From the IMG/VR virus record IMGVR_UViG_3300031884_000037, positions 1 to 48,282 of that record: 48,282 nucleotides of DNA; one strand, written 5' to 3'. Each line of letters begins with the position of its first letter. The stretch's first letter is position 1. The notes under the pieces are model-generated. The model searched no databases. It had not been told where the DNA came from and saw only the letters and a program-made list of their open reading frames with translations. Source of the stretch: a virus. A program made the translations under genes and the position numbers. Below are positions 39,100-41,757 of this stretch, one piece after another.

Positions 39100-39789
39100 A
39101 TGACTCTTCCAATTATTTCCGCTCCAACTTTTGAGACATCTTTGATCAGTGTAAAAGATAAAGTAAAATTTAGACCCTTTACTGTAAGAGAAGAAAAAAT
39201 ATTTCTTATAGCCCAAGAAAGCAATGATCCAAAAGATACAGCGAATGCTGTTAAACAAGTATTAACAAATTGTCTTGGTGACAGTTCTATAGATGTCAAT
39301 AAACTACCAATATTTGATGTAGAGTATCTATTTTTACAAATTAGAGCCAAATCTGTCAATGATGTTGTGACCCTACGATATAGAGATAAAGAGGATAATA
39401 AGATATATTCATTTGATGTCGATATAGATTCTATTAAGCCCACTATATTTCCAGAACATCATACATTAATAGATATCGGAAATGATATTAAAATTCAATT
39501 CCGATACCCTACTATTAATGATACATCGGTAAAAACTAAAATTGATATGATAGCATCCTGTCTGGAAACGATTTATGAAGGAGATAAAGTATATGATGCT
39601 GCATCATATAGCTTAGAAGAAAAACAGGAATTCATAAATAATTTTGGAAAAGTAAATTATGAAAAGATTTTAGATGAATTTGTAGATACAATGCCAAAAC
39701 TTCGCCATACTATTAAGTATACCAATACTAAAAAGAATGATAGAATTATTGAATTGGAAGGAATTGCTGATTTTTTTCCGTGGGGCTGA
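39100..39789 (+). CDS. 26: Baseplate hub protein gp26, zero-frame product of a frameshift pair
   Basis: 229 residues. FETSLISVKDKVKFRPFTVREEKIFLIAQES and VEYLFLQIRAKSVNDVVTLRYR are typical of the T4 gp26 (T4_baseplate) family, here in the position of lambda gpG before the tape measure. The C-terminus GIADFFPWG is read from codons TTT TTT in a T-TTT-TTT heptamer, where a -1 slip would fuse it to the gp51-like frame. Confidence 0.9.
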   Translation: MTLPIISAPTFETSLISVKDKVKFRPFTVREEKIFLIAQESNDPKDTANAVKQVLTNCLGDSSIDVNKLPIFDVEYLFLQIRAKSVNDVVTLRYRDKEDNKIYSFDVDIDSIKPTIFPEHHTLIDIGNDIKIQFRYPTINDTSVKTKIDMIASCLETIYEGDKVYDAASYSLEEKQEFINNFGKVNYEKILDEFVDTMPKLRHTIKYTNTKKNDRIIELEGIADFFPWG

Positions 39790-39840
39790 GTCATAATTCG
39801 TTAATAAACTATTACTATTTAATATTTAATTTGACTCAGC
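39771..39840 (+). promoter_or_regulatory. Programmed -1 frameshift signal (gp26/gp51)
   Basis: Slippery T-TTT-TTT (39771-39777) in the gp26 frame, 7-base spacer, then a 9-bp perfect stem GCTGAGTCA (39785-39793)/TGACTCAGC (39832-39840) with a 38-base loop. After a -1 slip the ribosome enters the downstream frame with no stop until 39951. Stop TGA of gp26 is ten bases past the heptamer. Confidence 0.85.
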
Positions 39841-39953
39841 GACATAATTTCTCTATACCAGAAATAGAAAATTTATTTCCTTTTGAAAGAGATATCTATT
39901 CGGGTTTAATACAACAGAAGCTTAAAGAGGAACTAGAGAATAACGATGGCTAA
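39780..39953 (+). CDS. 51: gp51-like tail chaperone segment, reached by -1 frameshift
   Basis: 57 codons if started at GTG 39780, but there is no good ribosome-binding site, so translation by frameshift from gp26 is more likely. FSIPEIENLFPFERDIYSGLIQQKLKEE resembles the second segment of G/GT-type tail assembly chaperones. T4 has separate gp26 and gp51 (hub assembly). The end overlaps the tape-measure start by eight bases. Confidence 0.75.
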   Translation: MGLSHNSLINYYYLIFNLTQRHNFSIPEIENLFPFERDIYSGLIQQKLKEELENNDG

Positions 39954-41757
39954 AGAACCTATTACCATCAATGGCGAAAAATATTCATTTGATGAATCGA
40001 ATGGAAAATGGTTTGCCGGGAAAAAAGAAGCTCCGATAGCTACTGCTAAAATGCTTGACCGTGTTTCTGCAACAGTTAAAACTGCGGAAGTACAAGAAGA
40101 TGTATCAACAGCTGAGTTACTGAAACCAGAACCCCAAGCACAAAAACAAGAAAGTGATAAGCCTCGACTTCCTAAGGTATCAAGTGATAATTTAAAAGAA
40201 TCTTTGAATCATATTGACGCTAATCTAGATAAATCAAGTGATAATTTAAAAGAATCTTTGAATCATATTGACGCTAATCTAGATAAATCAAGTGATAATT
40301 TAAAAGAATCTTTGAATCATATTGACGCTAATCTAGATAAATCTAGTAAAGTATTAGATAATCTAAGTAAAGTTCTTGATAATATCAAAGATGCATTTAT
40401 TAAGCGCAAACCTATCAATGAGAGAGAGTCTCTTGGTAAGTTAATGGATCTTACAAATGCAGAAAAAACTCGTCTTAAAAAGATGGGTATTGCTCCGATG
40501 TCTCCCAATGACTTTTCTTATAGAAAAGATGGAATACCACTTTCTAAAAATGATATTACCGAACATTTAAATAATCATGCTAATGACCATAATAAAAAAT
40601 TAGGTGACCAGCACGATAAGGTAAATAACCATCGTGATAAAGTTAAGAGACTGGCTGGCGATGCGGCCAAGAAATATGTAGGACACGTTCATGAACGATT
40701 GGCTGTTCACATGCCAATTATGGATGATATTGCAAAGGTAATGAATTGGTTCAAAAAAGATAAAGAACCTATTAAAAGAGAACATGCGTTCCCAATTATG
40801 AATCTAGATTCTTCTAAATTATTAATGTCGATAGATAAGAACGTATCGAATATTCTTTCATATATGATGACAGGTAAAATAAAAGAAGAAGAAAAACAAG
40901 AACATGAGCAAGTAGAAAAGCTTAATGAACGTGAGGATAAAGAGCGCCATGATGCAGAACAAGTATCAGAAAAAAGCAAGACAAGTGTAGGAGAGAAACT
41001 TAAAAAGTTGTTCACCAGAGAATCTAAAGATGAAGAATCTAAAGATGAAGAAGGTGAAGGGAATAAAGGTAGTTTCCTACATGATGCAACTAAAGTTGCT
41101 GCTGGTGTTGCTGAAGAAAAGGTAGGAGAGCATGTTCTTTCTAAAGTTGGTCCTAAAGTTAAAAATTTATTTGGTAATGGTAAATCTCCTAAAGGTGGAA
41201 GTCTCTTAAAAGATGCCGCTCCTGAAGCGGCTGGGGCTGAGGCATTAGGTGGAGAGGCAGGTGCCGCTGTAGGGGGCGCAGAGGCGTTAGGAGGGTTAGT
41301 AGAAGGTGGTGGCCTACTAGCTGGTATAGGAGAGGGTCTAGCGGGCGTTGGAGCTGTTCTAGCTGCACCAGAAGTATTAGCCGGAGCGGCTGCTGTCGCT
41401 GGTACAGCGGCTTTGGGATATGGGGCTTATAAATTATTTGATGGTGGGGATGCGTCTCCCGCACCCACGGCTACACCAACTACTAAACGAAGTCCTATGA
41501 TAGCTACACCTAAAACTCATCCTGCCACTAAAATACATGCGCCATTACAAGAAAAATCAAAACAATTGGTGACCATGGATAGAGAACATGAAAAAAGGAA
41601 GGATGCTAAAACATCTAAGCAATTTGCTACTGCCGGTCATACTATTATAAATAATAAAACAAACAATTCAAGTGCTGGTGGTAGCGGTGGTGGAGTAACT
41701 ATTTCTCCAACGGCAGCACCAAGAAATTCATTAGATTTAAATTATTGGAGCAATTAA
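39946..41757 (+). CDS. 29: Tail tape measure / baseplate hub protein (gp29-like)
   Basis: 603 residues, close to T4 gp29 (590). N-terminal small domain (ITINGEKYSFDESNGKWF), three identical 18-residue repeats beginning SSDNLKESLNH (about 79-132), long charged helices, a Gly/Ala-rich hydrophobic stretch (about 427-500), and a C-terminal Gly/Asn tail. Position behind the G/GT-type pair fits a tape measure that sets tail length. Identity as gp29 is by position and layout. Confidence 0.72.
   Translation: MAKEPITINGEKYSFDESNGKWFAGKKEAPIATAKMLDRVSATVKTAEVQEDVSTAELLKPEPQAQKQESDKPRLPKVSSDNLKESLNHIDANLDKSSDNLKESLNHIDANLDKSSDNLKESLNHIDANLDKSSKVLDNLSKVLDNIKDAFIKRKPINERESLGKLMDLTNAEKTRLKKMGIAPMSPNDFSYRKDGIPLSKNDITEHLNNHANDHNKKLGDQHDKVNNHRDKVKRLAGDAAKKYVGHVHERLAVHMPIMDDIAKVMNWFKKDKEPIKREHAFPIMNLDSSKLLMSIDKNVSNILSYMMTGKIKEEEKQEHEQVEKLNEREDKERHDAEQVSEKSKTSVGEKLKKLFTRESKDEESKDEEGEGNKGSFLHDATKVAAGVAEEKVGEHVLSKVGPKVKNLFGNGKSPKGGSLLKDAAPEAAGAEALGGEAGAAVGGAEALGGLVEGGGLLAGIGEGLAGVGAVLAAPEVLAGAAAVAGTAALGYGAYKLFDGGDASPAPTATPTTKRSPMIATPKTHPATKIHAPLQEKSKQLVTMDREHEKRKDAKTSKQFATAGHTIINNKTNNSSAGGSGGGVTISPTAAPRNSLDLNYWSN
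40180..40341 (+). repeat. Three perfect 54-bp direct repeats in the tape-measure gene
   Basis: Units at 40180-40233, 40234-40287 and 40288-40341, each TCAAGTGATAATTTAAAAGA onward, identical at base level and in frame (18 codons). The identity argues for recent expansion. Confidence 0.95.

Follow-up and report, generated by a model that had tools for sequence, protein, structure and literature searches.

The window, a 48,282-nt stretch of DNA from a freshwater T4-like phage, carries on its plus strand a gene (positions 39100 to 39789) whose zero-frame product of 229 amino acids matches PF12322 (T4_baseplate; E=2e-55) and phrog_150 (E=4e-59), identifying it as gp26 and as the short tail assembly chaperone form, TAC-N. 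The AlphaFold2 model of gp26 has a mean pLDDT of 93, and a Foldseek search with this model returned viral gp26-like and unnamed models, with no significant match in the PDB. The comparison of the model with the HK97 chaperone 2ob9 (E=1.7, TMt 0.34) gives no more than a hint that gp26 may have an HK97-type chaperone fold. A choline kinase that was the single match in a PDB sequence search of gp26 (E=0.25) was taken as a chance match.

Downstream on the same strand lies an open reading frame of 603 amino acids (39946 to 41757), whose start overlaps the end of a short reading frame in the -1 frame of gp26. The 603-amino-acid product has no family or phage-collection match, though the gene directly upstream has one; by its position and composition it is a candidate tape measure protein, which would make gp26 the immediate upstream neighbor of the tape measure gene. 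In phage Cr30, the large open reading frame that follows the -1 frame, with one small open reading frame between, is annotated as encoding a tail tape measure protein. The open reading frame in the window also contains, between 40179 and 40347, three near-perfect 54-nt tandem repeats that encode 18 amino acids each.

The last zero-frame codons of gp26 read GAT TTT TTT CCG TGG GGC TGA, with the stop codon at 39787 to 39789. The third base of GAT, T39771, is the first base of a slippery heptamer of the X_XXY_YYZ type, T_TTT_TTT (39771 to 39777), which is in slip phase with the zero frame and sits, to the base, where the original prediction had placed it. Runs of seven T are rarer in the window than in shuffled sequences (12 observed versus 38.7 expected), and in a scan of 27 open reading frames no other in-phase TTTTTTN lay 45 nt or less from a stop codon. 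Read from the heptamer, the -1 frame encodes FFSVGLSHN...IPEIENLFPFERDIYSGLIQQKLKEELENNDG and is open until a stop codon at 39951 to 39953. This extension of 58 amino acids plus stop (39777 to 39953) matches phrog_634 (E=6e-19), annotated as "baseplate hub assembly catalyst", and corresponds to the C-terminal domain of gp51 (TAC-C), in agreement with the predicted open, gp51-like frame; the same segment is found in Cr30, S-PM2, and phiM7. Together with residues 1 to 226 of gp26, the extension would form a TAC-NC protein of 284 amino acids.

The heptamer is flanked by two potential stimulatory elements. Downstream, after a spacer of 7 nt (39778 to 39784) that falls within the range of 5 to 9 nt for downstream stimulatory structures, the sequence GCTGAGTCA (39785 to 39793) can pair with TGACTCAGC (39832 to 39840) across a 38-nt loop; the TGA stop codon lies within the 5' arm. 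The perfect 9-bp stem described at this spacing in the original prediction was thus recovered exactly. The window contains this exact stem pattern a single time and none of 100 shuffles contains it, and the region from 39778 to 39870 folds with a z score of -3.3, with no shuffled sequence equally stable. Upstream, AAGGA (39758 to 39762), 8 nt before the heptamer, is a weak Shine-Dalgarno (SD)-like element by the published criterion for such elements, which was taken from PMC4066793, and a possible stimulator.

A tblastn search with gp26 identified 796 phage records, and no relatives were found in bacterial genome contigs. Junctions were fetched and translated from 15 named phages besides T4, and scans of IMG/VR added about 240 loci. 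A T_TTT_TTY heptamer at the last Phe-Phe of gp26, followed by the gp51 domain in the -1 frame, was found in Cr30, S-PM2, phiM7, P-RSM6, P-SSM2, AG-345-L05, P-HM1, OC, IG49, EniLVp02, Marzo, and Ahp1, and the gp51 domain lies in the -1 frame of gp26 in all 250 loci with a detectable gp51 domain. Homopolymers are error prone, and a T run miscounted in sequencing or assembly could in principle have split a single continuous gene. The same run of seven T, however, is present in three IMG/VR contigs that come from this phage or one nearly identical to it, and the 250 loci with the -1 arrangement include those of S-PM2, P-SSM2, and phiM7, whose genomes are finished. Because these contigs and finished genomes agree, such an error is refuted for practical purposes, and the probability left to it is negligible. 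Two of the three contigs differ from the window at a single base of the compared junction, A39842C, which alters the third position of a -1-frame codon without changing the encoded Arg (CGA to CGC).

Removal of junctions that were at least 90% identical left 172 representatives. Phe-Phe near the end of gp26 is within the last few codons in 165 of these and slightly further upstream in 5; the remaining 2, both from Ackermannviridae, are without it. Counting slightly longer zero-frame tails, the heptamer T_TTT_TTY is present in 170 of 170 loci. All of them have TTT as the first Phe codon, versus 73% of cases elsewhere in gp26 (log10 P = -22.9), and the codon before it ends in T without exception, over Ser, Asp, Asn, Ala, and Thr (log10 P = -29.3); both values assume independent loci, whereas the loci are related and not fully independent. 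All 165 representatives in the first round of scoring had an open -1 frame at the heptamer. A conserved hydrophobic residue immediately follows the slip; it was weighed as a sign of coding and set aside, since the overlapping zero-frame stop codon partly forces it and makes it weak evidence.

The composition of the run also bears on transcriptional slippage, in which RNA polymerase would add or drop a U on the T run and produce a mixture of mRNAs. Homopolymers are known slippage sites, with U7 raised in PMC4066793, and the window has such a homopolymer of seven T. In 138 of the 170 loci, however, the run is short, consisting of six T followed by C, and slippage by the polymerase needs neither an SD element 10 nt upstream nor a structure 5 to 7 nt downstream. 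This mechanism is therefore considered highly improbable.

A more substantial alternative is that gp51 is a separate small gene with its own start codon, translationally coupled to the termination of gp26. Public annotations do list gp51 as its own coding sequence, a -1 offset is common for overlapping stop-start arrangements, and in 110 of the 170 loci an ATG is found among the first codons of the -1 frame past the heptamer, so that independent initiation is conceivable there; many cyanophages have such an ATG. In the window, however, the -1 frame contains no ATG, and the earliest possible start, GTG at 39780, is 17 nt from AAGGA. An ATG accompanied by an SD element occurs in only 6 of the 170 loci, 43 loci have neither an early ATG nor an early GTG or TTG, and 15, including the window, lack an ATG in the 20 codons that follow the heptamer. 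The frequent Met falls at an alignment column that holds Leu in other loci, and a separate gene would leave the invariant heptamer, the SD element 10 nt before it, and the stem unexplained. On this comparison of junctions, frameshifting accounts for all of the loci and a separate start for only part of them, and a separate gp51 gene is accordingly judged very unlikely.

Structure downstream of the heptamer is a common property of these junctions. Sliding 60-nt folds across the 170 loci gave a sharp minimum beginning 5 nt after the heptamer, with a mean z score of -2.44 and 59% of loci below -2, versus values near 0 in most other windows of the scan, and the best helix usually starts 5 to 7 nt past the heptamer. 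The stem with the 38-nt loop is itself lineage specific. In the gp26 tree, the window groups with locus L183, in a set rich in this stem. Covariation was assessed in a gap-free alignment of 26 loci of this clade, picked by the tree and not by the stem, a set that leaves out Cr30 and phiM7, the two phages in culture. In these loci, 93.2% of the stem cells are paired, versus 21 to 39% when the partner is slid, and compensatory changes are present at 5 of the 9 pairs. There are 10 compensatory cells versus 2.2 in shuffles; such shuffle counts are not probabilities, and a structure drawn from one member favors itself. The compensatory cells are the stronger sign. The suggestion that the 38-base loop could form a pseudoknot was unsupported, as no helix between the loop and downstream sequence is conserved; the best, of 5 bp, is 82% paired compared with 92% for the stem.

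An SD-like element by the same criterion is found at this place in 69% of the 170 loci, compared with 11% of control windows; within the clade of the window, the figure is only 23%. GGAGG exactly 10 nt before the heptamer occurs in 62 of the 170 loci and is often carried by cyanophages. With the heptamer invariant and both the SD element and the stem differing between clades, the slip site is constant and the stimulators vary by lineage. The original prediction would have been refuted by relatives that keep gp51 with its own start while lacking heptamer and stem; for the heptamer no such relative was seen among the 170 loci, and this particular stem belongs to some lineages only, although a positioned structure of some kind is usual.

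Taken as a whole, the invariant -1 frame, the heptamer that is invariant against the codon background, the positioned structure, the covarying stem, and the SD-like elements strongly support the predicted -1 programmed frameshift joining gp26 to the gp51-like segment. It is thus very probable, from the comparison of loci, that gp26 of this phage is a tail assembly chaperone gene that yields both TAC-N and TAC-NC by programmed -1 frameshifting. Most ribosomes would read the zero frame to the TGA codon and produce the short form. A minority would pause at U_UUU_UUU owing to the 9-bp stem, perhaps aided by the weak upstream AAGGA, and both Phe tRNAs would slip back by one base, so that translation would continue in the -1 frame and end with the gp51 C-terminal domain. 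The analysis shows the sequence, the frame, the conservation, the covariation, and the positioned structure; slippage in cells and its efficiency are inferred from these. By analogy to gpG and gpGT of lambda, the two chaperone forms may bind the tape measure protein, coating and recruiting it.

The proposed system resembles lambda G/GT in having a -1 slip close to where the short chaperone gene ends, ahead of the tape measure region (in the window a candidate), and in producing short and long forms. It differs in the slip site, which is U_UUU_UUU in the window and G_GGA_AAG in lambda, and its likeness in fold to HK97 2ob9 is limited to the E value of 1.7. The lambda frameshift (Levin 1993; Xu 2004) has been reviewed (PMC5009743). 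With Escherichia coli dnaX, the locus shares a slippery heptamer, an upstream internal SD element (in many relatives GGAGG, 10 nt upstream), and a downstream structure; the heptamer is a different one, the gene is unrelated, and the SD element of the window is only the weak AAGGA.

T4 itself has two separate genes on opposite strands, 26 and 51, that encode homologous short and long chaperones. PF12322 matches gp26 of the window as well as both T4 gp26 and T4 gp51, and phrog_634 matches the -1 segment of the window and the C terminus of T4 gp51. Within the 249 amino acids of T4 gp51, PF12322 covers residues 1 to 201 and phrog_634 covers residues 147 to 246. Because gp51 matches both families, it is a complete long chaperone encoded in one frame, with gp26 as the short form. 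The description of the -1 segment as gp51-like therefore holds for the C-terminal domain but not for gp51 as a whole, which also has a gp26-like N-terminal domain. The abstract of Vladimirov, Gautam, and Davidson (2022) reportedly states that frameshifting is kept in several T4-like groups and that T4 uses separate genes 26 and 51, in agreement with the papers that cite it.

T4 gp26 and gp51 have been listed as hub assembly chaperones (PMC3004832). A passage of PMC12846349 describes polyT -1 signals as known in the TAC-N genes of T4-like phages, and one in PMC10885494, on PRFect, describes some T4-like phages in which a short TAC gene and a separate, fused long one take the place of frameshifting; both credit Vladimirov, Gautam, and Davidson (Virology 566:9-15, 2022). 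On the strength of these passages, a frameshifted T4-like chaperone is a known kind of system. The link between the T4 hub assembly genes and the G/GT system drawn in the original prediction is not new; the citing papers credit Vladimirov et al. The system credited to them shares with the window the gp26/gp51 family, a polyT signal at the end of TAC-N, and a long form with the C-terminal domain; the clade of the window differs by its covarying 9-bp stem with a 38-nt loop. While the polyT switch has already been reported, as far as the citing passages go, the lineage-specific detail of the stimulators may be new.

One possible history is that the -1 frameshift is ancestral in T4-like phages, with T_TTT_TTY kept and the stimulators swapped, the cyanophages using an upstream SD element and a short hairpin and the relatives of the window a long-loop covarying stem, and that T4 replaced the switch with a duplicated, prefused gene 51. 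This history is judged about as likely as not. The results support one shared mechanism that sets the chaperone ratio in contractile-tailed and non-contractile-tailed phages, and the junctions offer clean natural signals with exchangeable stimulators that could be used to test frameshifting.

The more distant Ackermannviridae are without the T_TTT_TTY heptamer. In five of their loci (L016, L020, L258, L260, and L259), a gp51-like C-terminal domain is unannotated and lies in the -1 frame, with no ATG near the junction. Ackermannviridae gp26 ends read (A/G)TT TTC AT(T/C) stop; in Serratia phage 3M, the sequence is G_GTT_TTC, which resembles the slip site of T7 gene 10. In Vibrio phage 1.244.A (L019), gp26 ends in CTT TTT CGC TAA TG and the C-terminal domain is in the -1 frame, with no canonical heptamer; the TAATG overlap suggests that reinitiation may operate there instead. 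The "gp51" genes annotated in many cyanophages are probably the -1-frame half of gp26 and not separate genes. The records for L013, L014, and cyanophages begin gp51 at an internal start or list it as a gene of its own, and the annotated -1 product is probably truncated.
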